Assembly: GCF_003024685.1 (NCBI RefSeq)
Contig: NZ_PYLQ01000020.1
Coordinates: 1 to 47,078 of the forward strand
Source: Faecalibacillus intestinalis
GTDB lineage: Bacteria; Bacillota_I; Bacilli_A; Erysipelotrichales; Coprobacillaceae
DNA: 47,078 nt
Direction: 5' to 3'
The notes beneath the pieces were generated by a model that was not told the origin of the DNA, did not search any database, and worked only from the letters and a program-made list of their open reading frames with translations. This document shows positions 6,913 through 38,043 of this stretch, piece by piece. The translations under genes and the position numbers were made by a program. Positions within the stretch are counted from its first letter, which is position 1; each line of letters begins with the position of its first letter.

Positions 6913-8199
6913 TTATAATTTAAATAATTTATTTGTTAAATCTATTATGTTTTCTTCAAATGTATATTTTATCATTTTTCTTTTTGATAAATTTTTAACT
7001 TCTGAAATTATATAATTTGAATAATTTGTATTTTCATCAATACATTCCAAATATACTTTGTATAGTACTTCTGATATTATTTTCAGTTCATCGTAATTCC
7101 AACCGTACCTGGCTATTAATTGTGTACCTATCCTAATTCCAGAACCATTATATATTTGTTTCTTTCTTGCATTTAAAGTTATTTTATAAACTTGGCATCG
7201 CATTATAAATTTATCAACTATTTTTGAATCCATCAAAATAAAAATTTGATGAGTTTCTGTATAAATTTTATCCTTTTTTACAATATTAAACCCTTTTTCT
7301 TCTAATAATTTTCCTAACATGTTTGCAACTTTCACCATATGCTCACAGTATTCTTTACCAAAAATTGAAAATTCTTCTAACGTAAATATCAAACTCATTA
7401 TTTGATGGAGTTGTACATTTCTTAGATAATCTGGATTTATTTTTAAATCAATCTTATTTATAATATCAGAAGAATTTGTTAATATTAATCCATTTGTAGG
7501 TCCTGGCAATGTTTTATGTGTTGATCCTGCCATAATAAACTGATAGGAACTATCAAAAAATTCTAGATAGTTTCTTATTTTTTTTGATGCGATTAATCCT
7601 AAAACCTGTGTAGCATCATAAATAAGAATTTTATTTTTATCCATTTTTATTTTTTCTAATTTAGGTTGAAATATCATATCAGATTGACATATCAAAATAC
7701 CTTTTATACTGTCATCTAATAAGAGTGTGTTTAACTTTTCATAATCAAAATCATAGTTATTATAATCATATGGCATAGAACATGTTTTAATACCTAGTCT
7801 TTTACATAATTTTGGCATAGAACTATGACCTCCACATTCTTCATCGCTGATTAATATTTTATCATTATTTTTAAAAAGGGACATAAGTAATAGACTAATT
7901 GTATTTACTCCAGTTAGAGTTCTTCCATCAGCGTACATACTTTTAAATAATTCAGAACTCAATCGATTTAATAAATTGTATAATTCAAAAAGATTATTAC
8001 TTCCAATAAAGTTATTATGTTCTTGATATTCTTCAATACCACCCATTATGTATTTATCTTGAATAAAAGATTTTAAAGGTATTTTTGTAAATTCAGATTG
8101 TTCATTCTCAGCAGCACATAATGGTAAACAAGATTTTTCAAAATTTGTTATTGGTTCGTATACTTTCTCACATAATTTGTAGAATTCATCGTATTTCAT
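6913..8199 (-). CDS. SHMT-like fold-type I PLP enzyme
   Basis: The protein has 428 residues, close to bacterial serine hydroxymethyltransferase (about 415). The motif AGSTHKTLPGPTNG with Lys229 matches the SHMT PLP-lysine motif THKTLRGPR. Asp195 in YDATQVLGLIA matches the PLP-nitrogen Asp of DMAHIAGL, with the following His replaced by Gln. Other family features are TGVNTISLLLM and DEECGGHSS. Overall divergence suggests a specialised enzyme, such as an amino-acid aldolase or a hydroxymethyl/methyl-transferring SHMT of secondary metabolism, rather than the housekeeping GlyA. It lies 2 bp after the methyltransferase gene. In the orientation shown the operon has no obvious promoter and is probably silent. 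Confidence 0.7.
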   Translation of the reverse strand: MKYDEFYKLCEKVYEPITNFEKSCLPLCAAENEQSEFTKIPLKSFIQDKYIMGGIEEYQEHNNFIGSNNLFELYNLLNRLSSELFKSMYADGRTLTGVNTISLLLMSLFKNNDKILISDEECGGHSSMPKLCKRLGIKTCSMPYDYNNYDFDYEKLNTLLLDDSIKGILICQSDMIFQPKLEKIKMDKNKILIYDATQVLGLIASKKIRNYLEFFDSSYQFIMAGSTHKTLPGPTNGLILTNSSDIINKIDLKINPDYLRNVQLHQIMSLIFTLEEFSIFGKEYCEHMVKVANMLGKLLEEKGFNIVKKDKIYTETHQIFILMDSKIVDKFIMRCQVYKITLNARKKQIYNGSGIRIGTQLIARYGWNYDELKIISEVLYKVYLECIDENTNYSNYIISEVKNLSKRKMIKYTFEENIIDLTNKLFKL

Positions 8200-8201
8200 A
8201 T

Positions 8202-8963
8202 CTATATTTCTCCAATATAAACAATTGTACTCAATGGAAAATAAACTAAATTACCTTGAGCGTATTTATGAAATACTTTTCTTAAATCACTAATATATAA
8301 GTTGTATTTACTATCTTTATTGGTCAAAGAGTATGAAGCCGATAATGCTCTTCCTATATATTCCTCTTCTGTTAAATAATTTAAACCATCATCAATGAAT
8401 TTATAAAAACGTGGTTGTTCTTTAAAAAAATTATTGAATGAATCTTTTTCAAAAGAAAAACTATGTATATCATCTTTATATACTTTACTATATTTTTTTA
8501 TAGTCTTTTGTGTTTCAAGACACAATTCATTTTTTGTTTCTTTGCTATTCCATACTAAAATAACTTTCCCTCTTTTTTTTAAAATTCTTTTAAATTCTTT
8601 TTTTGTGTCTTTTAAATCCAGCAATTGAAAAGCTTGTGCAACAGTAATTAAATCAACTGAATTATCTAATAAAGTAGTATGTTGCGCCGTAGTATTTATT
8701 AAACAAGTATTTTTCTCTAAAATATTTCTTTTTAATTGCTTGTACATATCCTTATTTGGCTCAATTGCAATAACTTGATTTACATATTTTGATAAAATTG
8801 TTGTATTAATTCCTGTACCTGCAGCTATATCTACAGCAATTTTTATTTTGTTTTCATAAATCTCTTTACATAATAAATTTATATAATTATTACTGTATCT
8901 CGCCCTTGTTTTATCGTATATTACAGCTTTTTCATTAAAAATTTCATAATTAAAATCAACCAT
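8202..8963 (-). CDS. Class I SAM-dependent methyltransferase
   Basis: About 253 residues with the standard methyltransferase order: motif I AVDIAAGTGINTTIL near residue 50, an acidic loop IAIEPNKDMYKQL, then LDNSVDLITVAQAFQLLD and LKKRGKVILVWNS. This is a Methyltransf_11/UbiE-like small-molecule methyltransferase; the substrate is unknown. The start at 8963 was chosen because AGAAAGG lies 9 bases before it, whereas the ATG at 8972 abuts that site with no spacing. It begins about 16 bp inside the right inverted repeat and is followed at 2 bp by the SHMT-like gene, so one-carbon or amino-acid chemistry shared by the pair is plausible. Confidence 0.75.
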   Translation of the reverse strand: MVDFNYEIFNEKAVIYDKTRARYSNNYINLLCKEIYENKIKIAVDIAAGTGINTTILSKYVNQVIAIEPNKDMYKQLKRNILEKNTCLINTTAQHTTLLDNSVDLITVAQAFQLLDLKDTKKEFKRILKKRGKVILVWNSKETKNELCLETQKTIKKYSKVYKDDIHSFSFEKDSFNNFFKEQPRFYKFIDDGLNYLTEEEYIGRALSASYSLTNKDSKYNLYISDLRKVFHKYAQGNLVYFPLSTIVYIGEI

Positions 8964-8978
8964 CCTATTCATCCTTTC

Positions 8979-9072: not shown

Positions 9073-9996
9073 ATGAAAAAAATAGAATTAGAAAAACAAT
9101 TAGAATCTTATTATGAAGATTGCGAATTTAGAAAAAGATTAAATGAAAAAACAATAAAAGCCTATACAATAGATCTAAATCAATATTTAGAATTTATTAC
9201 TACTACAGAAATAAATCAAAAAATAATAAATGAATACATACATTACCTAAATAAAAAATATTTAAAATATAAAACTATTAAAAGAAAAATAGCAAGTGTA
9301 AAAGCTTTCTATTCTTATTTAGAATATGAAGAAATAATAGACTATTCCCCATTTAATAAAATAAAAACAAAAATAAAAGAACCTAAATTACTACCAAAAA
9401 CAATTCAAAAAGATTATATCGATAAAATTATTCATCTATTATTAAAAGACTTAAAAAATTCAAAGACAGAATTCCAAAAAAAGATATCCTTAAGAAACAT
9501 TACACTTATAAGCGTAATGTTTTCAACTGGAATCCGTGTATCTGAATTATGTAATATAAAATTAAAAGATATAGACTTATTAGAAAAGAAATTAAAAATA
9601 TTTGGTAAAGGATCAAAGGAAAGAATTTTATATTTGGGAAATTCTAATGTAGTTCAATTATGTCAAATGTACCTAACTTATAATAATACATGTAAAAAGA
9701 ATGAATATTTTTTTCTAAACAAATTCAATAAAAAGCTATCGGAACAAACCGTTCGCATATTGTTGAAAAAAATAGAAAGTGAATTAGAACTTTCGACACA
9801 TATAACCCCTCATATGTTTAGACATACATTTGCTACAACTTTACTTGAAAAAGGTGTTGACATTAGATACATTCAAAACATATTGGGACATAGTTCAATA
9901 TCGACAACACAAATATATACATATGTTACATATTCAAAACAAAAAGAAATATTAACTAACAAGAATCCAATAAATGATTATCAATTAAATATTTAA
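9073..9996 (+). CDS. XerC/D-like tyrosine recombinase, likely invertase
   Basis: The protein has 307 residues, the standard Xer length. The N-terminal core-binding SAM-like domain occupies residues about 1-100 (EKTIKAYTIDLNQYLEFI). The catalytic domain has all expected residues: Arg in FSTGIRVSELCNIKL, Lys in FGKGSKERILYL, HMFRHTFATTLLEKGVD (His, Arg), GHSSISTTQIYTYV (His, nucleophilic Tyr). ATG 9073 follows AAAGGAGAAATATGAT. It lies 74 bp from the right 21-bp inverted repeat whose core architecture suits this enzyme family, so it most likely inverts the neighbouring segment. It could instead be an old element integrase. Confidence 0.85.
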   Translation: MKKIELEKQLESYYEDCEFRKRLNEKTIKAYTIDLNQYLEFITTTEINQKIINEYIHYLNKKYLKYKTIKRKIASVKAFYSYLEYEEIIDYSPFNKIKTKIKEPKLLPKTIQKDYIDKIIHLLLKDLKNSKTEFQKKISLRNITLISVMFSTGIRVSELCNIKLKDIDLLEKKLKIFGKGSKERILYLGNSNVVQLCQMYLTYNNTCKKNEYFFLNKFNKKLSEQTVRILLKKIESELELSTHITPHMFRHTFATTLLEKGVDIRYIQNILGHSSISTTQIYTYVTYSKQKEILTNKNPINDYQLNI

Positions 9997-11228: not shown

Positions 11229-12455
11229 ATGAAGAAAGTGAAAAAGAATATTATAGATAACATAAACCTGGAATTAGAAAATTATAAACCAAATAATTTC
11301 CCAGAAACATTTGATTTAGTTATATATTATTATTTTTTGGCAATTTATTATAAAAAAACAGATTTAAATAAATATAGACAATATCTTGAATATTCAAAGG
11401 ATCAACTAAATAAAATACTTAATAACCTAAAAAAGTATGATATTCCATTGGGTAGTTGGTACGGATTTACAGGAATAGCATATATGATAAGAGAATTATA
11501 TGGTGAATGTCAAATATTGTATTCAATAGAAAATTTTGTTAAAGATCAATCTTTAAAATTAATTGTTAATGGGAAAAATCATGACTTGTTTAATGGAAAA
11601 TATGATTTATTAAATGGTTTAACAGGGATTTTGTCATATTTTATTACATATCACAATGAACAATTAAATTATATAGAAGAATGTTTGAATTGGATGATTA
11701 AATTATTTGAGGAAGATTGTGAAATAATTAAATCAAAAAATATATGGATAAAAAATAAATACATAACAAATCCAATTTTTAAAAAAAAATATTCAGAAGG
11801 GTATATTGATTTAGGAGCAGCACACGGAATTATAGATTTCTTGTATATATTTTCTCTTGCGAAAAAAAATAACATAAAATGTAATAAATTAGATGAAACA
11901 TATAATAAAATTTTAGAATTTTATATAAATATGTTTGTATTTTCAAATGATACATATTGGCCACAGATTATAACCAATAATGAAAATGATAGAAAATATG
12001 TATATAAAAAAAGATTTGCATGGTGTTACGGGAAATTGGGAATAATTAGAATACTCTTTTGTGCTGCTAATAATACAGAAAATATAGAATTAAAATCATG
12101 GATGATACAAGAAATGAAAAAAATAGATATAAATGATTTAAATTTAGAATGCCCTACATTTTGTCATGGGTATTCTGGATTATATTTAATTATTAATTTA
12201 TTTTATATAGAAACTAAAGATGATTATTTTAGAATATTAAGTAATGTACTTGAAAGAAAAATATGGCAAATGGGAAATAAAAATAATAAGTATTATTTTT
12301 ATAAATATGATAAAGACTACATAAATAATAAAGATATTTATGAGTATGAAAAATTAAATTCAATAGATGGTTTATTTTCGATTTTAATACCCTATTTTTT
12401 AAAAGAAAGTAATTATTTTTATAATATGTACACAAAATCATTATTTTTAGTATAA
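11229..12455 (+). CDS. lanC: Lanthionine synthetase C-like cyclase
   Basis: This LanC forms the thioether rings by adding precursor cysteines to dehydrated Ser/Thr. The length, 408 residues, matches NisC (418). The zinc ligands are visible: Cys266 in FAWCYGKLG, and Cys312-His313 in CPTFCHGYSG. The conserved His199 (LGAAHGI) and Asp126 (YDLLNGLTG) correspond to NisC active-site positions. GSWYGFTGI is a typical first-barrel-repeat motif. It is the first gene of the operon, with ribosome site GAGG before ATG 11229, and LanB follows at 17 bp. The cyclase sits before the precursor genes, unlike nisin-type order. Confidence 0.9.
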   Translation: MKKVKKNIIDNINLELENYKPNNFPETFDLVIYYYFLAIYYKKTDLNKYRQYLEYSKDQLNKILNNLKKYDIPLGSWYGFTGIAYMIRELYGECQILYSIENFVKDQSLKLIVNGKNHDLFNGKYDLLNGLTGILSYFITYHNEQLNYIEECLNWMIKLFEEDCEIIKSKNIWIKNKYITNPIFKKKYSEGYIDLGAAHGIIDFLYIFSLAKKNNIKCNKLDETYNKILEFYINMFVFSNDTYWPQIITNNENDRKYVYKKRFAWCYGKLGIIRILFCAANNTENIELKSWMIQEMKKIDINDLNLECPTFCHGYSGLYLIINLFYIETKDDYFRILSNVLERKIWQMGNKNNKYYFYKYDKDYINNKDIYEYEKLNSIDGLFSILIPYFLKESNYFYNMYTKSLFLV

Positions 12456-12472
12456 AGAGGAGGATATAAAAA

Positions 12473-15448
12473 ATGAAATGCAAAAATGATTTTATGATAA
12501 GAATACCTTATAATTCATTTGATTATTATAAGGAATCAATAGAAAACAAAGAGAATTTATCACTAGATAAATTTAAAGAAAATTTATTGATATCTTCATC
12601 TGGCTTATATGATATTATTTCAAAAAAAGAAAAAATAAATAATGATGAATTGATTTCGTTAACTAAATATTTAATAAGAAGCTCAACAAGATGTACACCA
12701 TATGGTTTAAATTCGAGTGTGATGATTGGAAATTTTAAAGAAGACAATATATTAAATATACATAAGAAACATCATAAAAAATCTAGGCCTGATATGTCTT
12801 GGTTAATTGAAATTATAAAAAAATTAGAAAAAGATGTAGGTATTAAGCTAAAGGTAATAATAAATGATACCAATAGATTTGTTGGTGAAAAGGTCTTGAA
12901 AAAATGGAATAGTTGTTATGTGAAAAATGCACGTGAAAGTGAAAGAAAGATATATATTAATAATACCAAAGCAGTAAAGTATGTATTTGATATGTGTAAA
13001 CAATATATTTCTATTGAAGATATTATCAAAAATTTAAAATCAAATTCAATTGGTGTTAAAGAAGAATCAATAATTGAATTCATTAGTAGTTTACTAGACA
13101 ATGAATTCTTAATAAGCGACTTAAGACCAAATACTTTAATTACTGATCCATTAGGATATGTATTAGAAAAACTTGAGGGATACAATGTTAGTACAGAATT
13201 ATTTTGTAAATTATTAGAACTAAGAAGTATGTTAGATAATTATGAAAAGACTGATATAGGTGAAGGTGAAGAAATTTATAAAAATATAATTAATTTTATG
13301 GAAAGTATTAATGTATCCGATAATTATCTTCAAATAGATATGTATAATACGTCAAAAATATCTTTAAATAACAAAGTAAAAAGTGATATTGAAGATTTTG
13401 CAAATTTTCTTGCTAAATATAGATATAATGAAACATTTTTTGATTATTCGATGAAATTTAAAGAAAAATATGGAAATCAGGCTGTGAAATATCTTGATTT
13501 AATAGATGAAGAAACGGGCTTAGGATTTCCACATTCCGATGATAAAAATTCTTTAAAATATAATGATAATATTATTTGTGAAATTTTATTAGCAATGTCT
13601 GAAAATAAAACAAATAATTTAAAGTTAGAAAATTATATGGTAAATAATATAACATACAAAGAAGATGTTTCGCAAACAGGAGGAGAATTAGCTTTATATT
13701 TATATAATGAAAAAAATACGTTAAAATATATGATAAGTCCCTTGATGGGATCAAATACGGAATATAAAATTTCAGGAAGATTCGAATATTTATTTTCTAA
13801 TGAGGAAAAGCATAAAATGGATTCTTTAGTTAAGGAAGTTGAAGTATGTTTTATACCTCAAAATGCAAGATACAATAATGTTATGATGTGTAAATCAAAT
13901 AAAAGTGCATATGTTGAATATGGGACAAATACAATTATTCAAAATAAAGAAAGAATAGATATCGAAGATATATATGTAATAGTTGATAATCAAAACTATA
14001 TTAGGTTTGTTCAAAAATCTACAAATGAAATTATAGAGTTTTATGCATCTAATATGTTCAATATAAATGCATATCCACAAGAGTTAAGAACACTTATTGA
14101 GGTAACTAATAAACAGAAGTTGTTATTTACAAGTTTTTATACAGCTTTGCAACACTATATTTTACAAGTAAAAGGTTATTTGCCACGAATAAGTTACAAA
14201 AATTTTATTTTATTTCCAGCTTCTTATACATTGCCGAAGGATTTTGATTTTAAAAACAAAGATGTAACATTAAAAAATATATATGAATATATAAAAGAAA
14301 TGAAGAAAAAATACAACTTTTCTAATCTAGTTAGTGTAGGACCATTAGATCAAAGAATGCTTTTAAATGTAGAAAATAGGGTACATTTAAATATTTTATA
14401 TAATCTACTTAAAGGAGATAGTACATTAAGAATTTATGAAAATATTTTTGAAGAATCAAATCTTCCAATATATGATGAAAATAATGAAAAATATGTTAGT
14501 GAGATAATAGTTCATTTATCACCATGTCAAAAAAAATATAAAGATAAGTTAATTTTACCAGATGATATTCAGTATATAGATACAAATAAATATTTAATGT
14601 ATTCAAAATTTCCTTTAGAAAATTGGCTAAGTATTAAATTGTATTCCAATGACGATGTACATAATCACATTTTAATTAATTCTATTTCAAAATTAAATAA
14701 TATTTTAAAACAAAAACAGTATAATAGTAGACTATTTTTTATTAGATATAAGGATCCAAAATCACATATAAGACTAAGAATTAAGTATTCCAATGAGAAA
14801 TTAAAAGATATTGTAGGATTTGTAAGTGATATGATTAAAGATTTAAAGGAAAATAATTTAATAACAGAATGTGTTATGGATACATACTTTCAAGAATTTG
14901 AGAGATATGGAGGAGCTAATAACTTTTATTTTGCAGAAGAAACCTTTTTTTCAAATAGTGAATTAGCTATAGGACTTCTAAAATTGTATGAATACAATTT
15001 TACAAAATTAAAATTAACTGATTTATTTATTATAAGTTGTTATAAGTTAATAGAAGATTTAGATATTAATTCGGAAGATAAACTATACTATTTAGAAAAT
15101 TTTAATATTGGAAAAAAATATAATAAAGAATTTGAACAAATAAAAATAAGAACAGGGCATTATTTGAAAAATCATGATAATTGGCAAAATTATAGAACTT
15201 CAGAAGAAGGAATAAGATTATTAATTAACCTAGATAACTATGAGAATGATTTTATTAGTTACTGGAATAAAATTAATAGTAGCATCAATTCTAAAGAAAG
15301 AAAAAAGGGAATATTATTAAGTATTTTTCATATGCAATTCAATCGAATGATAGGAATAAATAGAAAATTAGAAAATAGAACAATGGGATATTTAAGAAAA
15401 ATTATTTATAACCAAATTATGAGGGAAAAATATTATGGAAAGAAATAA
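12473..15448 (+). CDS. lanB: Full-length class I lanthipeptide dehydratase
   Basis: At 991 residues it is the size of NisB (993) and contains both halves: the glutamylation domain (Lant_dehydr_N; SSTRCTPYGLNSSVMIGNF near residue 75 is the family signature RxTPFGLF) and the C-terminal elimination domain (SpaB_C; NWLSIKLYSND near residue 725, then FFIRYKDPKSHIRLRIKYS). It activates precursor Ser/Thr with glutamate from tRNA-Glu and eliminates it to give dehydro-residues. ATG 12473 follows AGAGGAGG. Its 3' end overlaps the ABC transporter start by 14 bp, indicating translational coupling. Confidence 0.92.
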   Translation: MKCKNDFMIRIPYNSFDYYKESIENKENLSLDKFKENLLISSSGLYDIISKKEKINNDELISLTKYLIRSSTRCTPYGLNSSVMIGNFKEDNILNIHKKHHKKSRPDMSWLIEIIKKLEKDVGIKLKVIINDTNRFVGEKVLKKWNSCYVKNARESERKIYINNTKAVKYVFDMCKQYISIEDIIKNLKSNSIGVKEESIIEFISSLLDNEFLISDLRPNTLITDPLGYVLEKLEGYNVSTELFCKLLELRSMLDNYEKTDIGEGEEIYKNIINFMESINVSDNYLQIDMYNTSKISLNNKVKSDIEDFANFLAKYRYNETFFDYSMKFKEKYGNQAVKYLDLIDEETGLGFPHSDDKNSLKYNDNIICEILLAMSENKTNNLKLENYMVNNITYKEDVSQTGGELALYLYNEKNTLKYMISPLMGSNTEYKISGRFEYLFSNEEKHKMDSLVKEVEVCFIPQNARYNNVMMCKSNKSAYVEYGTNTIIQNKERIDIEDIYVIVDNQNYIRFVQKSTNEIIEFYASNMFNINAYPQELRTLIEVTNKQKLLFTSFYTALQHYILQVKGYLPRISYKNFILFPASYTLPKDFDFKNKDVTLKNIYEYIKEMKKKYNFSNLVSVGPLDQRMLLNVENRVHLNILYNLLKGDSTLRIYENIFEESNLPIYDENNEKYVSEIIVHLSPCQKKYKDKLILPDDIQYIDTNKYLMYSKFPLENWLSIKLYSNDDVHNHILINSISKLNNILKQKQYNSRLFFIRYKDPKSHIRLRIKYSNEKLKDIVGFVSDMIKDLKENNLITECVMDTYFQEFERYGGANNFYFAEETFFSNSELAIGLLKLYEYNFTKLKLTDLFIISCYKLIEDLDINSEDKLYYLENFNIGKKYNKEFEQIKIRTGHYLKNHDNWQNYRTSEEGIRLLINLDNYENDFISYWNKINSSINSKERKKGILLSIFHMQFNRMIGINRKLENRTMGYLRKIIYNQIMREKYYGKK

Positions 15449-17225
15449 TATACTAAAAAAAACAAAAGTGATTTCAAAAAATATTATAGAAACCATGAAG
15501 CTTTTACTAAGGTATGAAAAAAAATATATATTTTTATCATTATTTTTGAATATTTCAGTTAGTACGTTACCTTTTATTTCTATTATTATTTCTCAAAAAA
15601 TGCTTAATATGCTTCAAATTGGAGGGGAAAAAAGTACTTTAATTAAAGTTTTAATATTATATACAACGATAAAAATGGTTTCCCTTATTTTGAATAATTT
15701 TAATTCATATTACTTAACTAAGTACAGTGATTATTTATTTTATCATTTAAATGTTTTATTTTTAGACAAATGTTCAAGGCTTGATTATCAAGATTTCGAA
15801 AATCCACAAATATATGATGCTTTACAAAGAGCAGAACAACAAATAGGCATTAGACCATTAAGTCTTTTTAAAAATATATTGTCCTTAATTTCAGGGTTAG
15901 TAAGTTTTATAGTTTCGTTAATTATATTATCAAATTGGCATTTATGGTCATTGATAGGGTTTATTATCTTACCATTTGCAGCTTACAAATATTTTATTGA
16001 AATTAATAAAAAAGAATACGATATGGTATACAAAAGAGCAGAAAATGAAAGAAAGGGATGGTATTTATCACATTTAATTATTAAAGATTATTTTGTAAAA
16101 GAAGTTAAAATGTTAAATTTATCTGAATATTTAATAAGAAAATTTAAGAATATAAAAAAAGAAATATTTAATGAAAATATAATTATTAATAAGAGAAAAA
16201 ATATTTTTAATTTCTTTTATCAACTTTTAAATACATTATTTTCGCTAATAATTGTGGCATTAGCGATGTTAGAAGCGTTATCTTCAAAATTATTATTAGG
16301 GAGTTTAATGACTTATATTAATACGACTACTAAAGTTGAATCTGCAATTAATAATATTGCTAGTTCGTGTTTTACATTATATACGGATAGTGTTTATTGT
16401 GAATATATTTTATCTTTTTTTAGATTAGTGGACAATAAAAAGTACCAAAATAATGAAGAAAAAATAAAAATAGATTCTATTAAAAATATAGAATTAAAAA
16501 ATGTTTCATACAGATATAAAAATAGAAAAAATTATTCGTTAAAGAATATCTCATTAAAATTAAATTCTGGCGAAATAAATGCACTTGTTGGTGAAAATGG
16601 TTCAGGTAAAACAACTTTAATTAAAATACTAACAGGATTATATACTGATTATGAAGGAACTGTTTTAGTTAATGATATTGATTTAAGAAAAATTGATATG
16701 AAAGACTATCAAAACAAAATTTCTACAGTTTTTCAAGATTATAACAATTATGAATTTGATGCAAAAAATAACATTGGTGTTGGGGATATAACACAAATTA
16801 ATAACAAAGAAAAAATAATAAAAGCGGCTAAACTGACAGGTGCAGATGATATTATTCAAACATTACCAAATAAGTATGATCAACAATTAGGAAATTGGTT
16901 TTCTGGAGGTATACAATTATCTGGTGGCCAATGGCAAAAAATTGCTATTGCTCGCTCTTTGATTAGATGTGCAAGTATGTATATTTTAGATGAGCCTACT
17001 GCTGCACTTGATCCATCTGCGGAATATTCATTTTTTAAGAATTTTAGAAATAATATTTTAGATAAAATAGGAATTTTTGTTACACATAGATTTTCTAATG
17101 TCAAGATCGCAGATAATATTTTTGTACTTAAAGATGGAAAATTAATTGAACAAGGAACACATAAGTCACTGATGAATAATAAAGGTGATTATGCCAAATT
17201 ATATAATATACAGATAGGAGAATAA
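15435..17225 (+). CDS. lanT: Lanthipeptide-type ABC exporter without peptidase domain
   Basis: At 596 residues it has the NisT/SpaT arrangement: an N-terminal membrane domain with about six helices (residues about 30-310), then one ATPase domain. The ATPase shows Walker A GENGSGKTTLIKIL, signature LSGGQWQKIAIARSL, Walker B MYILDEPTAALDP and H-loop VTHRFSN. It probably dimerises to export modified precursor. There is no N-terminal C39 protease, so leader removal needs a separate enzyme, and none is seen in the operon. The start at 15435 has GAGGGA 9-14 bases upstream, within the 3' end of lanB. Confidence 0.88.
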   Translation: MERNNILKKTKVISKNIIETMKLLLRYEKKYIFLSLFLNISVSTLPFISIIISQKMLNMLQIGGEKSTLIKVLILYTTIKMVSLILNNFNSYYLTKYSDYLFYHLNVLFLDKCSRLDYQDFENPQIYDALQRAEQQIGIRPLSLFKNILSLISGLVSFIVSLIILSNWHLWSLIGFIILPFAAYKYFIEINKKEYDMVYKRAENERKGWYLSHLIIKDYFVKEVKMLNLSEYLIRKFKNIKKEIFNENIIINKRKNIFNFFYQLLNTLFSLIIVALAMLEALSSKLLLGSLMTYINTTTKVESAINNIASSCFTLYTDSVYCEYILSFFRLVDNKKYQNNEEKIKIDSIKNIELKNVSYRYKNRKNYSLKNISLKLNSGEINALVGENGSGKTTLIKILTGLYTDYEGTVLVNDIDLRKIDMKDYQNKISTVFQDYNNYEFDAKNNIGVGDITQINNKEKIIKAAKLTGADDIIQTLPNKYDQQLGNWFSGGIQLSGGQWQKIAIARSLIRCASMYILDEPTAALDPSAEYSFFKNFRNNILDKIGIFVTHRFSNVKIADNIFVLKDGKLIEQGTHKSLMNNKGDYAKLYNIQIGE

Positions 17226-17227
17226 AA

Positions 17228-18520
17228 ATGAATATATTATTGTTAATGTCTTCTCCAAGAAGTCATATTACTCTTGTAGAAGTACTAATAAGAGAATTAA
17301 TAAATAAACAAAATGTAGTTTATTGTATGAGTACATCCAATAATAAAGATATGCTTGAAAGTTATGGTGCAAAGTTTATTGAATATCCCGATTATATTGT
17401 TCCTGCTTCTTGTAATAATATTGATGTTGATTTGGTTATGAAAAAAACAGACGAACTATGGAAAAAAGGTAAAATTAAAGAAGGTTATGATTATATAACT
17501 GAAAAAGACATAGAATCTGTTTTTGATATAACATTAAAACAAATAGATTATATTTGTGAAATTGTAGAAAAATTTAACATCAATTTAATGTTTCGAGATG
17601 CTGTGGATAAATTAGGAAGATTGGTTGCTGATAAAATGAATATTAAATGCATTGGATATATGACACATAATATTTATTCAAAAAGATACTTTGAGCAGAA
17701 TCCAAATGATTTATATGCTGTATTTATGAATGCTAAATGGCGTATAAAAAACTTACCAAATGAATATTTTCTTGATTTAAGAGAGAGAGCAGAAAAATTA
17801 TATAAGAAATATGGGGAAAAAAATTTTCCAATTTATACTCATCATCAGTTAGATCCAATGACTGAATTTACACTAATTTTTTCAAGTGAAAAATTTCAAC
17901 CGGTATCATCATTTTATGAAAATAGAAAGTATTTAATAATCAAACCAGAAAAATCTGTATTTAAAATAGAAGAAAATATAGATGATAAATTAATAAAATT
18001 TATTGAATCATACAAAAAAATCATATATATATCTTCAGGTTCATTTGTAACACAATCATATTATTATTATAAAAATTTTGTAAATGCTCTTTCAAAATTT
18101 AATATTGGAGTTGTTATGGCAGTTGGAAAATTTTCAGAGCCCCTAAATAACTATATAAGAGAAAATAAAATAAATAATATTTACATTTCTAGTTTTATAC
18201 CTCAAAAATTTATTTTATCAAAAACAGATGTCTTTATTACATCAGGAGGTCATAATAGTATATTAGAAGCAATTTATTATAAGGTTCCAATGTTAATTAC
18301 TCCAATTAGTAGTGAACAAAGAATGAATGGATTATTATTAGAAGAATTAGGAATAGGTGAAACAACCTATTCATTAAATAAAAATGCTTCAATTTCATCA
18401 CAAATAAATAAATTATTAAGAAAACAGTTGAATGTAAATAAATTAAATGAAATTTCAAATGATTTAAGAAATCAAAATAATAATTTTAAATCTATGTGGG
18501 ATTATATTTATGATAATTAA
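17228..18520 (+). CDS. GT1/MGT-like glycosyltransferase of the lanthipeptide operon
   Basis: A 430-residue GT-B fold enzyme. The C-terminal donor-binding region is clear: ISSGSFVTQSYYYY at the start of the second domain, SSFIPQKFILSKTDVFI, then TSGGHNSILEAIYYKVPMLI and PISSEQRMNGLLLEELGIG (residues about 336-377), the pattern of UDP-sugar MGT/YjiC-type transferases. The N-terminus (LLLMSSPRSHITLVEVLIREL) is the acceptor domain. It starts 2 bp after lanT (ribosome site TAGGAG) and overlaps the reductase gene by 11 bp, so it is firmly part of the operon. By context it should add a sugar to the peptide, or less likely to a resistance target. Sugar and acceptor are unknown. Confidence 0.82.
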   Translation: MNILLLMSSPRSHITLVEVLIRELINKQNVVYCMSTSNNKDMLESYGAKFIEYPDYIVPASCNNIDVDLVMKKTDELWKKGKIKEGYDYITEKDIESVFDITLKQIDYICEIVEKFNINLMFRDAVDKLGRLVADKMNIKCIGYMTHNIYSKRYFEQNPNDLYAVFMNAKWRIKNLPNEYFLDLRERAEKLYKKYGEKNFPIYTHHQLDPMTEFTLIFSSEKFQPVSSFYENRKYLIIKPEKSVFKIEENIDDKLIKFIESYKKIIYISSGSFVTQSYYYYKNFVNALSKFNIGVVMAVGKFSEPLNNYIRENKINNIYISSFIPQKFILSKTDVFITSGGHNSILEAIYYKVPMLITPISSEQRMNGLLLEELGIGETTYSLNKNASISSQINKLLRKQLNVNKLNEISNDLRNQNNNFKSMWDYIYDN

Positions 18521-19190
18521 AAGTACAAAAAAATTGTTGCATATTAATGGAGATCATTACAATGAGAAGAAAACAACAATGAAAATCTATAAACAATTAA
18601 AATTAGAAATAAAAAAAAGATACTATTTAGAAGAAATTTTTATAGATGATAGTTACTTAAATTTTATAAATAATTGTATTGGGTGTAAAACTTGCTTTAA
18701 AACTGGAAATTGTATTTATGATAACAAGGATGGAATTATTGAAATAAAAAACAAACTATTAGGCGCAGATATTATTGTTATTTCAACACCAATATTTATT
18801 GATAATATATCAGGTAATTTAAAAACACTATTTGACAGATTATCATATTGGTTTCATACGATGCCATTGAAAGGTAAAAAGTGTATTCTAATAATTTCTA
18901 CATATAGAACAGGTATAAATGAAGTATCTAATTATTTATATAAAATATGTAGTTATTTAGGGTTAGAAGTAGTGGGATTAATAACCAGTGATTATAAAAC
19001 AACTAAAAATGTCCTATGTAATGAAATAGATATATCTTTAGATTATTTGGAAACAGGATTATTAAAGAAATGTACAAATGTAGCTTATAGTGATTATATA
19101 TATAATTTATATGATAAATTATATAAAGATATGTTAAAAAATAATCTTATTACTTTTGAATTAGCTTACTGGTGTAAATTACATCAATAA
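18510..19190 (+). CDS. Flavodoxin-fold NAD(P)H-dependent FMN reductase
   Basis: A 226-residue protein of the NADPH-dependent FMN reductase/iron-sulfur flavoprotein group. CIGCKTCFKTGNCIY near residue 53 and ADIIVISTPIFIDNISGNLK followed by LFDRL near residue 95 form the FMN site. The cysteine trio may bind a cluster or be redox active. Flavin-dependent reductases of the LanJ type convert dehydroalanine or dehydrobutyrine into D-amino acids in other lanthipeptides, so the same job is plausible here. That is inferred from context; closeness to known LanJ enzymes cannot be judged by eye. Coupled translation with the glycosyltransferase (11-bp overlap) supports a biosynthetic role. Confidence 0.75.
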   Translation: MIIKSTKKLLHINGDHYNEKKTTMKIYKQLKLEIKKRYYLEEIFIDDSYLNFINNCIGCKTCFKTGNCIYDNKDGIIEIKNKLLGADIIVISTPIFIDNISGNLKTLFDRLSYWFHTMPLKGKKCILIISTYRTGINEVSNYLYKICSYLGLEVVGLITSDYKTTKNVLCNEIDISLDYLETGLLKKCTNVAYSDYIYNLYDKLYKDMLKNNLITFELAYWCKLHQ

Positions 19191-19218
19191 GTGGTTATAG
19201 AAGAAAGGAGGGAAAAAT

Positions 19219-19386
19219 ATGGATAAAGAATTACAATTAGAAGACTTCAATTTAGATTTGTATGATGAAGGTAATGGAGAAGATGATGGTGTTGGAGTAT
19301 ATTCTTCAGTAGTAGGAACAAATAGCTCTACATCAATTGTCTGTGCAACATTAACAAACTTCACAGAAGGATGCAATTATTGCTAA
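19219..19386 (+). CDS. lanA1: Class I lanthipeptide precursor, copy 1
   Basis: A 55-residue peptide. The leader carries DFNLDL at residues 9-14, the same FNLDL box that NisB and NisC recognise. A very acidic Gly-rich stretch follows (residues 16-26, EGNGEDDGVG). The core, probably from about residue 28, has Ser29, 30, 36, 37, 39; Thr34, 38, 44, 46, 49; and Cys42, 52, 55, allowing up to three thioether rings and several leftover dehydro-residues. Tyr28, Tyr54 or any Ser/Thr could carry the sugar. The C-terminal residue is Cys, but no LanD decarboxylase is present. The leader cleavage site is not obvious. A strong AGGAGG ribosome site precedes the ATG. Confidence 0.92.
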   Translation: MDKELQLEDFNLDLYDEGNGEDDGVGVYSSVVGTNSSTSIVCATLTNFTEGCNYC

Positions 19387-19410
19387 AAAAAGTAGAAAGG
19401 AGAAAAAATT

Positions 19411-19578
19411 ATGGATAAAGAATTACAATTAGAAGACTTCAATTTGGATTTGTATGATGAAGGTAATGGAGAAGATGATGGTGTTGGAGTATATTCTTCA
19501 GTAGTAGGAACAAATAGCTCTACATCAATTGTCTGTGCAACATTAACAAATTTCACAGAAGGATGCAATTATTGCTAA
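19411..19578 (+). CDS. lanA2: Class I lanthipeptide precursor, copy 2 (identical peptide)
   Basis: It encodes exactly the same 55 residues as copy 1, with FNLDL leader box at 10-14 and Cys at 42, 52 and 55. The DNA differs at two silent positions. It lies 24 bp after copy 1 with its own ribosome site AGAAAGGAG. This is not a two-component lantibiotic, because the peptides are identical; extra gene dosage for the last genes of a long operon is the simplest explanation. Confidence 0.92.
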   Translation: MDKELQLEDFNLDLYDEGNGEDDGVGVYSSVVGTNSSTSIVCATLTNFTEGCNYC

Positions 19579-19590
19579 GGCAAAAATACA

Positions 19591-20124
19591 ATGAATAAAA
19601 GTTATATAACATTATCAAAAACTAATATTTTTAATGCAGTAATTTCAATAAATAGTAAAAATGAACAAAAATATTATCACAAATATAAACCTGAGATTGG
19701 TGTTAATATAACAGCTAATAGTATAGAATTACATTCAATTGGTTCATTAACTGGTAAATGGAAACAAGAGCCATTTAAAATAATTAATTATTCAGAAATA
19801 GAAAAAATAGAAGTATCAATTTGCAGAAGAAATTATGGTGCTATTTCGGGAATAATTGTAAATGAATACCATATTGATTTAATTTTTGAATTATTAGATG
19901 GATATTCTTATCAATTAGAAACGCAATCATGGGATAATTTTATTTACATGATAGAAAAATTAAAGTTAGAAAAAGTGTTAGTGGATGATATATTAAATGT
20001 TTATGAAAATTACAAACAGTATAGAAAAAAATATTTTGAAAAGTTAGATAAAACTTTTGATGATATTGCTAATCAATACCATTTAGATTCATATAGATCA
20101 AGCAATAAAAGAAAAGGGTGTTAA
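19591..20124 (+). CDS. Unknown protein closing the lanthipeptide operon
   Basis: A 177-residue soluble protein, 12 bp after the second precursor gene and before a strong terminator, so it is the last gene of the operon. The pattern of alternating hydrophobic strands (GVNITANSIELHS, FKIINYSEIEKIEVSI, YHIDLIFELLDGYSYQLET) followed by a C-terminal helix resembles a bacterial PH-like domain. There is no signal peptide and no lipobox, so it is not a LanI lipoprotein. It might give self-protection from inside the cell or help modification. I do not recognise a family. Confidence 0.55.
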   Translation: MNKSYITLSKTNIFNAVISINSKNEQKYYHKYKPEIGVNITANSIELHSIGSLTGKWKQEPFKIINYSEIEKIEVSICRRNYGAISGIIVNEYHIDLIFELLDGYSYQLETQSWDNFIYMIEKLKLEKVLVDDILNVYENYKQYRKKYFEKLDKTFDDIANQYHLDSYRSSNKRKGC

Positions 20125-20161
20125 AAGCCAATGCCATTAAGTTAAGATTTTATGGCTATAG

Positions 20162-20192
20162 GAGGTTTACATTAAAGTAGACCTCTTTTTTA
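20162..20192 (+). terminator. Terminator of the lanthipeptide operon
   Basis: GAGGTTTAC (20162-20170) pairs with GTAGACCTC (20177-20185, one G-U pair), followed by seven Ts. Confidence 0.8.
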
Positions 20193-22474: not shown

Positions 22475-22612
22475 ATGAAAAAAATTAAATTGAAAAAGAA
22501 TATGGTAAATTTTCTATTAACAGTATTGGCTTTTATGGCTACTGCAGGAGTTAATAATTACTCTATTAGTGGATTATATCAACCAAAAAAACCAGATGAT
22601 TTTTGTTTTTAA
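22475..22612 (+). CDS. agrD: AgrD-like cyclic autoinducer precursor with Ser in the ring
   Basis: A 45-residue peptide with the AgrD plan: an amphipathic N-terminal helix (MKKIKLKKNMVNFLLTVL), the small-residue hinge FMATAGVNNY, a ring segment, and the conserved charged tail YQPKKPDD at 35-42. In family members the five residues before the Y(Q/E)P motif form the thiolactone and begin with Cys. Here that segment is Ser30-Ile-Ser-Gly-Leu34, so a lactone through Ser30 is predicted. The only Cys (44) lies in the tail. ATG 22475 follows GGAGGGAAAAGG. Directly downstream are the LytTR regulator and sensor. AgrB is 6.8 kb away across an insertion. Confidence 0.8.
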   Translation: MKKIKLKKNMVNFLLTVLAFMATAGVNNYSISGLYQPKKPDDFCF

Positions 22613-22744: not shown

Positions 22745-23440
22745 GTGAATATAGCAATTGTAGATGATGATGTTGATTTTTCTAGTGAACTTCAACAATA
22801 TGTAATAATGTTTATTGAAAGATTGTACACTAGGTATGAGATTGATATTATAAATAGTGATTTTTTTAATAATTCTTTAGATAAAAACTATGATATTGTT
22901 TTTTTGGATATTGATTTAAAAGAGATAAACGGAATAAATATAGGAAAGAAATTATTAGTTTCAGAAGCAAATCCTATAATTATCTTTGTATCATCAAGAG
23001 GTGATTTAGTGTTTTCGTCGCTTTCAGTTAGACCATTTTATTTTGTACGAAAGGCATATTTAAGACAAGATTTAGAAGAAATGTTTATTTTGTTAAAGAC
23101 GTATTTAAAAGAAACAATGCAATTATTTACTTTTGATTTTCATGGAAGAAAAACAAACCTATTTTTAAAAGATATTTATTTTATAGAATCCAGTGGACAT
23201 GATGTTACTTTATATACTAAAAATGGAGAATATTGCTATAGATCAACTATGAGAAATATCTTGGATACTTTGGGAACAGAAACAATTGTACAATTTCAAA
23301 AATCATTTTCAGTAAATTTAGATTATATTAAGGAAATAGAAAAAAATACTATTATTTTAAAAAATAATGAAGAATTTAATATAGGCAGAAAATTTAAAAA
23401 TAATGTTATACAAAAATACAAGGAGCACTTTTTACGATGA
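22745..23440 (+). CDS. AgrA-like LytTR response regulator
   Basis: A 231-residue protein: receiver domain residues 1-120 with acidic pocket VDDD (6-9) and phospho-acceptor Asp55 in FLDIDL, then a LytTR DNA-binding domain (residues about 130-231; DIYFIESSGHDVTLYT, FQKSFSVNLDYIKEIE). It starts with GTG 22745 behind GAGAGGT. Its stop codon overlaps the sensor gene start by 4 bp. It most likely binds the repeats at 22381-22411 and activates the autoinducer gene, in the way AgrA does in other Bacillota. Confidence 0.88.
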   Translation: MNIAIVDDDVDFSSELQQYVIMFIERLYTRYEIDIINSDFFNNSLDKNYDIVFLDIDLKEINGINIGKKLLVSEANPIIIFVSSRGDLVFSSLSVRPFYFVRKAYLRQDLEEMFILLKTYLKETMQLFTFDFHGRKTNLFLKDIYFIESSGHDVTLYTKNGEYCYRSTMRNILDTLGTETIVQFQKSFSVNLDYIKEIEKNTIILKNNEEFNIGRKFKNNVIQKYKEHFLR

Positions 23441-24651
23441 CAATATATAATTATTTTATAAATTTTTTAGAGGGTCTATTATTGAGTTCATTCATGGCAT
23501 ATTATTTCAATGTTAAGAGGAAAAAAATGTATATTTTAATAACAACGATAATTTGTTTTTTTGAAATATCTATTTCAAATTACTACAATACATTTGATCA
23601 GTTGTTGATATTTATTGTAATTGCAACATTATTTATCTCTTTATTGAAATTAAAAACAGAAAGTTTGTTTGAAAAAATTATTATTTGTTCTATAGCAGGA
23701 ATATTTTTATACTTGGCAAACTTATTGTCAATGCTTGTTACAACTTTTATATTTAATATTAGCACATTAGAAATTTATACAAAAAATTATTATGTATTCT
23801 GTACAATATTATCTAAATTTATTTTGTTATGTTTTATAATATTTGCTTGTATTTTTAAACGGTATTTTTATGATTCTTTAACAATGAAGAATGGATGGGC
23901 TATCCTATTATTATGTCTAACGATTGAATATACTATTGCTGTATTATTAGAAACGTTATTAACAGGTGCTTTTTCTACGAAAAAAGGTGTTTCATTAACA
24001 ATATCCCTTATTGTTATAAGTGGTTTGTTTCTATTTATATTTAGAAAATTACAGATTGATAATGAAAAGAGACTACAATATGAGCTTAAGCTTCAAAAAA
24101 ATCATTTTAGTGAAGAAAATTATAGTAAAATGAAATATATGTATAATGAAATCATAGAAACAGAACATAGAATGATGTATATATTAATAGGTGTAAAGAA
24201 ATACTTAGAGTCAAATCAAATAGATAAAGCAAATTTTATGTTAGAACAATATATTTCAAAAGTTAAGAGATTTTCAACTGCAATAAATACTAATAATCCA
24301 TATTTTGACTTTGTTTTAAGTTCAAAAATACATGAGTTTATGTATGATGATATTTTTTTAAAAAATACGTTATTTATATGTGAAAATCCTATTTACGATA
24401 CGAATGAATTTTGTGATTTAATTATTTACTTGTTGGATAGTTTTAAAGATAATTTAAATTCTAAAATAGGATTAAGCTTAGGAATTCATCAGGAAAATAA
24501 TTTTATAATTGTGGAGATGATAGGTGATTTAAAAGAATATAAAGTTACAGATGGTTTATATAAAAAAATTAAATATTTTACAACGGATTACTCTTTAAAA
24601 AATGTGGAGAGTATTTATACTTTGAAATTAATTATTGATATTGTTGAGTGA
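23437..24651 (+). CDS. AgrC-like sensor kinase with degenerate ATPase domain
   Basis: A 404-residue protein with six to seven transmembrane helices in residues 1-205 and a cytoplasmic AgrC-type region. His244 in ETEHRMMYILIGVKK is at the expected phosphorylation position, and NTNNPYFDFVLSSKIHE matches the AgrC NPxxDxxLxxK motif. The HATPase is poor: the N-box, normally LLDNAIEA, reads YLLDSFKDN, and no GxGL-type G-box is seen before the end (ESIYTLKLIIDIVE). It may be a sensor with weak or no kinase activity, or a phosphatase-type partner. It should detect the cyclic peptide. The IS21-like relic begins 40 bp after its stop. Confidence 0.78.
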   Translation: MTIYNYFINFLEGLLLSSFMAYYFNVKRKKMYILITTIICFFEISISNYYNTFDQLLIFIVIATLFISLLKLKTESLFEKIIICSIAGIFLYLANLLSMLVTTFIFNISTLEIYTKNYYVFCTILSKFILLCFIIFACIFKRYFYDSLTMKNGWAILLLCLTIEYTIAVLLETLLTGAFSTKKGVSLTISLIVISGLFLFIFRKLQIDNEKRLQYELKLQKNHFSEENYSKMKYMYNEIIETEHRMMYILIGVKKYLESNQIDKANFMLEQYISKVKRFSTAINTNNPYFDFVLSSKIHEFMYDDIFLKNTLFICENPIYDTNEFCDLIIYLLDSFKDNLNSKIGLSLGIHQENNFIIVEMIGDLKEYKVTDGLYKKIKYFTTDYSLKNVESIYTLKLIIDIVE

Positions 24652-25950: not shown

Positions 25951-26415
25951 TTTTTTATTTTCCTCTATAATATTTTGCACCTCTTACAAGGGCAAAACAG
26001 TTAAACTAGATGAAATATTTCAGTTTAACTGTTACTTTTTCTTGACGTAGTACCAACCTCAGCTAACTTTTTGCGACAAACCTTTTTCGACCAACGGTAC
26101 CATTACTATTTTTAAAGTTTACTGGAATTCGTTGTCCACAAGACCTCACGGGGTAATTCACTAATCCTCTAACTTTTACAACGCCTTGATTTACTGTCTT
26201 GGTTTTACGTTTACCTTTTGGACTTCGACCTGTTATGCAGCCTCATCCACCATTTAGCTTAATATCAAGTTTCTGTTTGTACGCTCAAAAGAATCACTAC
26301 ACCACTTCCTCCATCATTGTCATCACTGACAACGACTTGTAGTTCATTACACTTGGCGGTAAATACCTGTGATTGGTTTATTTCCAATTGAATTATACCA
26401 TGCTCGGTACACATA
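25951..26415. other. Degenerate DNA upstream of istB
   Basis: No intact gene. A hairpin CAGTTAAACT/AGTTTAACTG lies near 25999-26031. On the minus strand, about 26035-26240 reads as a basic peptide (SPKGKRKTKTVNQGVVKVRG, GQRIPVNFKNSNG, ending RFVAKS) without a start, of unknown origin. The istA that should precede istB is not recognisable. Confidence 0.4.
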
Positions 26416-28925: not shown

Positions 28926-29396
28926 CTTTATTCAAATTCATATGAGAACCTAAGATGAAGAAGAATCATCTTTCTTAAATTATAAAAATATTTGTATCCA
29001 TAGGCATTTCGTTTTACAAGCTTGATCTTGTTGTTCTTGTTCATGGTTTTATATAATGTACTTTTTATGTTTTATGTTTCTTATTAAGAAAGAGTAGCTT
29101 TGAAAATTGATATTAATTAATTTTTTTGAATAATATAAGTTATATTAAAGATGATTATTAGATCTAGTTAAGTTTAATAAAAAAAGAGGAGTATATAAAA
29201 ATGCCAATGATTTAAAAATATTTAATATGTTAAAGAAATGTTATTATTTATGCTTTACTATAATCTTTTTAAATTTTTGAATGATATTATTTAATATTAA
29301 TAAAGTAAGTTATGCCATATTTAGGTTAGATATGCCTAAATAAATATATAAAATTTTTCTTAATGTATAATTAATTTGAAGAAGGAAGATGGTATA

Positions 29397-29951
29397 ATGA
29401 ATGGCTATATTATAAATAGATTAGTAAGAAATGGCTATATAAAAGAAAAAGAACGAGCGAGTTATCAATATGGAATGGATGTTTTAATTTTAAATTTGAT
29501 ACCAATTTTTATAATTCTAGTTATTTCAGTTGTAACAAGAAATATTAAATTTGGTGTAATATTCCTATTATTTTTTATTCCTGTAAGAATAAATATTGGT
29601 GGATATCATTGTAAGAAAATTTCTAATTGTACATTATTGTTTGTTTTATTATATATTTTTGTTTTAAAACTAAGCACATTATCAATACAATTGATATTAA
29701 AATATTTTGGAATCCTTTGTATACTTTTTATTATGCTTTTAGATCCTATATCGTACGATATTATAGAAAATAAAGTTGAAAATTATAAAAGATCAAAAAA
29801 AATCATTAAAGCAGTCAGTATTTTAATGATAGTAATATTATTTTTATTAAATGATAATTGTTTGTTAAGTGCAACAAGCATGGCGGGAATTTTAAATTTT
29901 TGTCTTTATTGTATGGGACGAGTTGATTTAAGAAGAGGAAAATTATTATGA
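29397..29951 (+). CDS. agrB: AgrB-like peptide-processing membrane protease
   Basis: A 184-residue membrane protein with about six helices. The catalytic pair of AgrB endopeptidases is present: His71 in RINIGGYHCKKIS and Cys78, seven residues later, the same spacing as His77/Cys84 of Staphylococcus aureus. AgrB cuts the AgrD tail and forms the ring, releasing the autoinducer outward. ATG 29397 fits GAAGGAAG better than the TTG at 29376. No intact agrD is adjacent; the nearest is at 22475. Its stop overlaps the next gene by 4 bp, so it heads the operon to 33141. Confidence 0.88.
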   Translation: MNGYIINRLVRNGYIKEKERASYQYGMDVLILNLIPIFIILVISVVTRNIKFGVIFLLFFIPVRINIGGYHCKKISNCTLLFVLLYIFVLKLSTLSIQLILKYFGILCILFIMLLDPISYDIIENKVENYKRSKKIIKAVSILMIVILFLLNDNCLLSATSMAGILNFCLYCMGRVDLRRGKLL

Positions 29952-31099: not shown

Positions 31100-31114
31100 A
31101 AGTAGGTGAATATG

Positions 31115-32365
31115 ATGAAATTTGCATTAAATAATCTTTTTAAACAAAAGAATTTAATGATAATTTACGGATTGACAATTACATTAGTTGCAGCTATATG
31201 TTTTGTTTTTCTGGCTATGTTATATGATCCATATTTGCAATTAGACACAACAAGTGTTGATAAAATGTATATGGGATCAGCAACAACATTATTAGTACTA
31301 ATTTTTAGTGTTTGTCTCATGATTTATACAAATATGTATGTTTTAGAAGCAAAAAATAAAGAAATGTCGTTGTTGGTTTTTCATGGATTGACATTGAAGA
31401 AAATGATTTTTTATCAATTTTATCAAAGTATATTTATGTATATATTATTTGGAACGTTGGGAATTGCTTTGGGATATAAATTAACACCAGTAATATTTAA
31501 AAACATATATTATAAATTACATTATGTTTATGATATTAAAATTATCAATCAATCATTTTATCAAGCTATTTATATGTTATTGATGATGCTTTTTATTTCT
31601 CTTGTTTTAAATATTGGATATGTATATCGTGGTAGGTTGACTAGTATGATGTCAAATACGAGACAAAAGAATTATAGGAAAAAGAATGTTTTTCAAATAA
31701 CGAGTAAGATATATCCTGTTTTATTTATTTTAGGACTTGTAATGATGTTTACAACAGAGCATATTGCGTCGGGATATATAGTATTTAGTGTTATTGGAGC
31801 ACTTGGTGGATATGGAACAGTAAGATATTTTTTCCCAGAATATATTGAAAAATTAAAAGCATCCAAATGGTTAAATAATAGTCAAAGACTAGTCGTTTTT
31901 GGAGAACTATATCTAAAATTTAAATATATAGGAATATTTTTAGAGTTATTGATACTTATTTCAATAATAATAACAACATTAATTTGTTTCAACTTAAATA
32001 ATTTAATCGAAATGTACAGAATGATTATTGCCTACATTATTATGATGCCAATGATTGTATTTTGTATCACTTATAAAAATTTAATTATTTCAAAAAAGAA
32101 TGTAAAGAATCAAAATTGTATTTATAAATTAGGAATTACAAAAAAATATCAAAAAAAATTTATAAAAGAAGAAACACTAATTATGTATGGTATATTATTT
32201 ATTTTACCAATGACATATATGATATCCACATTGGGAAGATTTTATGTATATGATGGAATTTCAATTTTAATAATTGCCTTTATTATTGGTTATTTTATAT
32301 TAAATTTACTTATTTCAATGTATATATCTTACAAAGTAACTAATCAATTTTTTAGGGGGGTCTAG
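31115..32365 (+). CDS. FtsX-like ABC permease (BceB/antimicrobial-peptide type)
   Basis: About 416 residues with around eight membrane helices: one at the N-terminus after MKFALNNLFKQKN, a cluster at residues about 55-175, and more towards the end. It is shorter than BceB (about 650) and lacks its large extracellular loop. The N-terminal pattern and the dedicated ATPase next door place it in the FtsX/MacB superfamily of peptide-sensing and peptide-removing transporters. The start was chosen at 31115, after AAGTAGGTG. The ATPase follows with 2 bp between them. It may protect against, or export, the lanthipeptide or the autoinducer. Confidence 0.72.
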   Translation: MKFALNNLFKQKNLMIIYGLTITLVAAICFVFLAMLYDPYLQLDTTSVDKMYMGSATTLLVLIFSVCLMIYTNMYVLEAKNKEMSLLVFHGLTLKKMIFYQFYQSIFMYILFGTLGIALGYKLTPVIFKNIYYKLHYVYDIKIINQSFYQAIYMLLMMLFISLVLNIGYVYRGRLTSMMSNTRQKNYRKKNVFQITSKIYPVLFILGLVMMFTTEHIASGYIVFSVIGALGGYGTVRYFFPEYIEKLKASKWLNNSQRLVVFGELYLKFKYIGIFLELLILISIIITTLICFNLNNLIEMYRMIIAYIIMMPMIVFCITYKNLIISKKNVKNQNCIYKLGITKKYQKKFIKEETLIMYGILFILPMTYMISTLGRFYVYDGISILIIAFIIGYFILNLLISMYISYKVTNQFFRGV

Positions 32366-32367
32366 CT

Positions 32368-37493: not shown

Positions 37494-38043
37494 GTTTCAA
37501 CACCTCCTTTCTCTGTTCTGCCACAAGTGCTTTTCGTTCCTCCAATGAACCATACAGAAGAATATCAAGCAGATATTCGATATAGTTCTTCTTATACAGT
37601 GCTTCTGCAAACAGAGGATTCCATTCCTCATCCGGCTGTTTAGGAGCGTATTTCTTTTCCCATTCTCTAAGAAGATGAAAATAATCCGTCAGCACCTTGT
37701 AGCAATGATTTTCTCCTTTTTGATACTTCTGTTCCGGTGTCGGCTCACGAATACGAGGGCGGACACTGGGCTTTTGTCGGCTGTCATAGTTAAGACCAAA
37801 ATCTTCAGCAAGTTTGACAGCAGCTTCCCTCAGCCCGATACCGAATAGCTTCGCTGTGAGATCAACAGCGTCTCCGGTTGCTCCGCAGCCAAAACAGTAA
37901 TAGCGTTCATCCAGCTTCATACTGGGGGACATATCCGAGTGAAACGGACAGCACGCCATACCTGTGCGACCCACTTTCAAGCCATAGGCTTCTGCGGCTT
38001 GTCGGGCAGTAACATTTTCTTTTACAATTTCAAATACATTCAT
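37405..38043 (-). CDS. CHC2 zinc-finger DNA primase (truncated type)
   Basis: A 212-residue protein containing a DnaG-type CHC2 zinc finger: Cys31/32 and His35 in CCPFHSDMSPS, then Cys50 and Cys53 in YYCFGCGATGDAVD. No TOPRIM domain follows, so it may only recognise DNA and work with VapE. ATG 38043 follows AAAGGAG. It is a typical partner of VapE in Firmicutes mobilizable elements. Confidence 0.82.
   Translation of the reverse strand: MNVFEIVKENVTARQAAEAYGLKVGRTGMACCPFHSDMSPSMKLDERYYCFGCGATGDAVDLTAKLFGIGLREAAVKLAEDFGLNYDSRQKPSVRPRIREPTPEQKYQKGENHCYKVLTDYFHLLREWEKKYAPKQPDEEWNPLFAEALYKKNYIEYLLDILLYGSLEERKALVAEQRKEVLKLEQRIAELSADRTMHSRRNPKQLRAERER

Follow-up and report, generated by a model that had tools for sequence, protein, structure and literature searches.

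Glycosylated lanthipeptides have been described in class III, as NAI-112 with the glycosyltransferase AplG, and in class V, as cacaoidin with GT2/GT4 enzymes (PMC10373908, PMC12328550, PMC8068269). Both are actinobacterial and have dedicated glycosyltransferases; NAI-112 carries a deoxyhexose on Trp, and cacaoidin, modified through Cao8/16/24, carries deoxysugars on Tyr. Glycocins such as sublancin, glycocin F and thermoglycocin, treated in the literature as a group separate from glycosylated lanthipeptides, are peptides of Bacillota bearing hexose or GlcNAc; they are made with SunS-type GT-A enzymes, contain disulfides and lack LanB and LanC. In bacillithiol synthesis, the glycosyltransferase BshA adds GlcNAc and the PIG-L enzyme BshB deacetylates it. 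Enzymes of the FMN-reductase family are found within lanthipeptide clusters as LanJB of the CrnJ/BsjJ type, with products so far in class II (PMC7268733). The open-licence literature searched yielded neither a glycosylated lanthipeptide of class I nor any lanthipeptide accompanied by a PIG-L enzyme, and earlier reports of either may exist elsewhere. One passage of a survey of lanthipeptide clusters mentions FMN reductases across the classes and names class IV for glycosyltransferases, and no class I glycosyltransferases appear there.

The window analysed here, a stretch of 47,078 nucleotides (G000:C12:1-47078) from the 2.79-Mb genome of Faecalibacillus intestinalis, has a GC content of 21-27% over most of its first 36 kb. 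At 11229-20124 it carries a tightly packed operon in the order lanC-lanB-exporter-GT1-FMN reductase-two precursor genes-orf177, with all genes intact and on the plus strand. The lanB and exporter ORFs overlap by 14 bp, the exporter and the GT1 gene are 2 bp apart, and the ORFs for GT1 and the reductase overlap. The gene list of a first-pass annotation, including a final gene without family, and the close or overlapping spacing that it described were borne out by these ORFs and by Pfam and TIGRFAM matches. For the single terminator that it placed at the end, a hairpin scan detected one terminator-like plus-strand hairpin after orf177 (20160-20187), which is weak evidence by itself because 1.1 are expected by chance in the region. 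We consider, with a probability of roughly 0.6, that the cluster directs synthesis of a glycosylated class I lanthipeptide, to which GT1 would add GlcNAc for subsequent deacetylation by a PIG-L enzyme.

Assignment to class I follows from the dehydratase, the cyclase and the precursors. The window LanB (12473-15448; PF04738, 2e-93; PF14028, 7.6e-42) aligned over its full length, glutamylation and elimination domains included, to NisB and to 9g04, which is MadB (PMC12241602), and the NisB-type residues in RxxxRxTP, in HIRLR and at the C-terminal His are kept. The window LanC (11229-12455; PF05147, 1.1e-28), a thioether cyclase aligned to NisC and 8byk, has both AWCYG and CHGYSG in place, and thus the complete Cys/Cys/His set of NisC-type zinc ligands. 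Together with the LanT-type exporter (15435-17225; PF00005, 1.2e-31) and the FNLD-type leader, these features are shared with the nisin-type NisABTC and MadB systems. Unlike nisin-type NisABTC, the window set adds GT1, the FMN reductase and PIG-L, and the operon is without LanP, LanFEG and LanRK, an agr locus lying nearby instead. The system is also distinct from glycocins, as the glycosyltransferase is of GT1 and not of SunS type and as no C39 peptidase domain was found in the exporter by domain search.

The two precursor genes (19219-19386 and 19411-19578, plus strand) differ at two nucleotides, both synonymous, and encode identical proteins of 55 aa with an FNLDL leader and a core containing Ser, Thr and three Cys. 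A leader with F[DNE]L and a C-terminal [YF]TE...C pattern are common to the window precursors and those of relatives, and the precursor cores are rich in Ser/Thr (10-19) and poor in Cys (1-3). No acceptor residue was uniquely conserved among the cores. We set aside the idea of a Tyr-specific acceptor, since the C-terminal Tyr of the [YF]TE motif in relatives is Phe in the window. The NAD(P)H-dependent FMN reductase (18510-19190; PF03358, 4.5e-13) contains a CX2CX2CX5C motif of Fe-S type, in which the four Cys are invariant in six relatives. By family match it is predicted to be LanJB-like, an activity that would convert Dha/Dhb to D-residues, and it differs from the described LanJB enzymes in this Cys motif and in its class I context. 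The last gene, orf177 (19591-20124; 177 aa), has weak relatives in four other loci; its fold search gave no significant match, and a low-confidence model with weak PH-domain matches suggests a possible PH-like beta-barrel of accessory role.

Searched with the glycosyltransferase and LanB, the host genome yielded exactly one further copy of each. Both lie in a cluster on contig C11 (G000:C11), where the order is agrA-agrC-agrB, exporter, PIG-L, GT1, FMN reductase, four precursors, LanB, LanC-like and PH-like orf. Since the identity between the two clusters is 32% for the glycosyltransferase and 29% for LanB, they represent an old divergence rather than a recent duplicate. Among 316 genomes of the order, the glycosyltransferase subfamily was detected at six loci in five genomes (twice in G000, and in G028, G032, G033 and G039), and LanB at five loci in four genomes, each adjoining the glycosyltransferase or located one to a few genes off; within the order, LanB was found solely at loci also carrying the cluster glycosyltransferase. 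The sixth glycosyltransferase (G039) is on a contig of 4.4 kb with an FMN reductase and an FDLQ precursor. G032 is Candidatus Stoquefichus massiliensis AP9 and G028 is Candidatus Stoquefichus sp. S9_Bin2, and a contig of an uncultured Mycoplasmataceae carries LanB-GT-LanC. To annotate the related loci, their proteins were compared with those of the window and of C11, and Pfam was used for LanC; the independent clusters form a small sample of seven. A two-sequence profile detected three close relatives of the glycosyltransferase on genome contigs, and searches of viral contigs and plasmids gave none.

The set common to these loci consists of LanB, the glycosyltransferase, a LanC-like protein, the FMN reductase, a precursor and an exporter, usually with PIG-L and the PH-like orf, and with agr genes near. 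The neighbours of the glycosyltransferase vary, from exporter-GT-FMN reductase in the window and LmbE-GT-FMN reductase on C11 to LanB-GT-LanC elsewhere. As gene order varies while the set persists, adjacency of the glycosyltransferase cannot be put down simply to inheritance of a single arrangement. Its recurrence with LanB across rearranged loci of independent relatives agrees with the earlier proposal that it is integral to a class I lanthipeptide system, and the genome mining then suggested, for lanB-lanC-GT1-FMN reductase with FNLDL-type precursors, did recover the set in related genomes. As class- and phylum-level genome samples yielded no further cluster members, six unrelated class I clusters from plasmids of Priestia, Ligilactobacillus, Staphylococcus and Lactobacillus were taken for the base rate of glycosyltransferases; none has an annotated glycosyltransferase, PIG-L or FMN reductase in the PLSDB gene tables, which are incomplete. 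In a tree that included five of the LanBs from these six plasmid clusters, the six cluster LanBs formed a clade apart from those five (support 100/98).

Zinc ligands of LanC are complete in the window only, and at least two are lost in each of the five relatives compared. All three are lost in the LanC-like protein of C11, and in L017, G028, G032 and G033 the sequence is WGNG instead of WCYG and the His is absent. Precursors of the relatives with zinc-deficient LanC contain one or two Cys, versus three in the window (no precursor was identified for L017). Cyclisation by these homologues would be zinc-independent, like that of the cyclase domains of class III, or else rings would be few. In G032, LanB (L018:7096-10004) is broken by in-frame stops, and its precursor, glycosyltransferase and other genes look intact. 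The broken LanB and the lost zinc sites would be expected of a decaying or silent cluster with the glycosyltransferase as a passenger, but the ORFs of the window operon are all intact, its precursor copies differ synonymously only, and the motifs of the glycosyltransferase are kept at about 30% identity, so that we regard such decay as very improbable.

The proposed glycosyltransferase (17228-18520; PF00201, 6.8e-12) matched TIGR01426 at 4.1e-33, far under the curated cut-off, and is accordingly called MGT-like, a divergent subgroup and not MGT proper. The predicted structure has a GT-B fold (pLDDT 82), with YojK, Kcn28, OleI/OleD and YjiC as best PDB matches. The N-terminal catalytic His13, its partner Asp124 and the donor-end Glu363-Gln364 are invariant across seven cluster sequences, and these catalytic motifs of GT1 type persist even at about 30% identity. 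In place of the His of the GT1 donor motif HGGxNS, each of the seven has Ser, Ala or Thr, a mark common to the subgroup, and donor use may for this reason differ from that of UDP-glucose enzymes. In a glycosyltransferase tree with outgroups, the outgroup branches were very long and fragmentary. Resemblance to OleI and to Mgt self-resistance enzymes, in an operon without a LanFEG immunity transporter or LanI, raises a role in immunity: the glycosyltransferase, with or without PIG-L, would alter the target within the producer itself (lipid II or wall polymers) or, in the manner of OleI-type macrolide glycosyltransferases, would inactivate the peptide intracellularly. This is quite improbable, because the intracellular enzyme sits among biosynthetic genes at every locus, coupled to LanB, LanC or FMN reductase, because no matching OleR-like extracellular glycosidase was recognised in the neighbourhood of the cluster, and because an ABC permease/ATPase pair in the window (31106-33141), separate from the operon exporter, could serve immunity instead.

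Glycosylation of the peptide remains the preferred role, and the nature of the sugar is suggested by the PIG-L/LmbE de-N-acetylase gene (33681-34298, plus strand; PF02585, 6.2e-20), which lies 13.5 kb downstream of the operon on its own transcript. BshB1 and BcZBP, both of which act on GlcNAc compounds, were the best matches (PDB 2ixd and 6p2t). Against TIGR04001 the product scored 2e-27, 96 bits versus a cut-off of 182.5. It has the metal and catalytic motifs AHPDD and HxDH, which are invariant among the cluster copies as AHPDD and HQDH. Identity between the window copy and the other PIG-L genes of the clusters is 68-77%, much higher than for the glycosyltransferases or LanBs. At E <= 1e-10, the subfamily was present in three of 43 genomes of the family (G000, G028 and G032), all cluster-bearing, with three of its four copies inside clusters, and was absent from the cluster-bearing G033. 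On C11 the PIG-L and glycosyltransferase ORFs overlap by 4 bp, a predicted translational coupling, and in G028 the PIG-L gene is directly 5' of lanB. PIG-L thus belongs to the cluster gene set, and, with G033 lacking it, deacetylation would not be universal among clusters. Bacillithiol synthesis was considered as its home and rejected: BshC was not found in the host genome by profile search, in which control profiles matched as expected, no BshA passed the cut-off, and the BshB1 equivalog score was missed.

The simplest reading is that PIG-L would deacetylate the sugar added by the glycosyltransferase, which points to GlcNAc trimmed to glucosamine. The deacetylase in the gene set, which the first-pass annotation had missed, favours an amino sugar over a plain hexose or deoxyhexose. 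Relatives of the GT1/MGT family mostly use UDP-glucose as donor, and this, like the location of PIG-L outside the window operon and its absence from G033, would fit transfer of a plain hexose or other sugar to the peptide, with PIG-L acting elsewhere on a sugar precursor or wall component. We regard such transfer as unlikely in view of the confinement of the subfamily to cluster-bearing genomes among the 43, and of its positions against the glycosyltransferase on C11 and lanB in G028. Deacetylation is nevertheless proposed less confidently than glycosylation, because PIG-L is missing in G033 and stands apart from the operon in the window.

For the preferred reading, of GlcNAc transfer followed by deacetylation, the genes with their families and key motifs, the operon structure and the conservation of the set in related genomes are observed, and we infer which substrate the glycosyltransferase uses, which sugar it adds, in what order the steps occur and all of the chemistry. 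LanB would dehydrate Ser/Thr of the core presented by the FNLDL-type leader, LanC would close up to three thioether rings, and the FMN reductase would probably reduce some dehydro residues. GT1 would attach an N-acetylhexosamine to a core hydroxyl, GlcNAc being the most likely sugar and UDP-GlcNAc its donor, PIG-L would then strip the acetyl group to leave an amino sugar, and the ABC transporter would export the peptide, with production probably timed by the agr quorum system beside the cluster. Compared with NAI-112 and cacaoidin, the window thus combines class I, GT1 and a likely amino sugar; that class I with GT1 would be a new combination holds as far as the literature on these two goes (PMC10373908, PMC12328550, PMC8068269), its examples being of class III and V only. 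The predicted steps parallel those of BshA and BshB, the window PIG-L being BshB1-like, but the glycosyltransferase is GT1 and not BshA, BshC is absent, and the substrate would be a peptide. More tentatively, these clusters may represent a previously undescribed class I lanthipeptide-like family with a free amino sugar. With the cyclase zinc site lost from most members, their products would be dominated by the sugar and by dehydro residues rather than by several thioether rings. If the preferred reading is correct, class I lanthipeptides would gain glycosylation, probably with a cationic amino sugar, and engineering could draw on a peptide GT1 and a peptide-sugar deacetylase. One gene family offers a testable contrast, the same glycosyltransferase with zinc-complete LanC in the window versus zinc-deficient homologues in the five relatives compared, and the GT1, LanB and PIG-L set would be a specific query for mining more members.

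The agr quorum-sensing locus near the clusters includes, on the plus strand of the window, an agrD-like signal peptide gene (22475-22612), of which the end ...YSISGLYQPKKPD matches ...YSFIGPYNPKKPD in L018. As ...YSISGLYQPKKPD, like the L018 peptide, carries Ser at the ring position and lacks Cys there, the signal is possibly a lactone. A LytTR response regulator gene of agrA type (22745-23440), with homologues by the clusters in L018, L019 and L021 and beside C11, is followed by one for an agrC-like histidine kinase (23437-24651). The agrB gene (29376-29951; PF04647, 6.3e-25) lies about 5 kb from agrAC with other sequence between, and inside the stretch splitting the locus is a group II intron D1-D4 RNA (26160-26332, minus strand; Rfam RF02001, 88.8 bits).

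XerC-like recombinases adjoin both host clusters (window 9073-9996 and L003:3225-4036), the C11 copy being split into two frames, and a gene like SHMT/fluorothreonine transaldolase and a methyltransferase gene (6913-8972, minus strand) are located just upstream of the window copy. The region 36117-44998, with GC up to 46%, a primase/helicase-like pair, a relaxase-like ORF and a large serine recombinase, is probably a foreign integrative element as read from its ORFs. Near-identical MazF-like and excisionase-like ORFs are located close to the ends of both cluster contigs (window 45374-46169 and L008:11310-12105).
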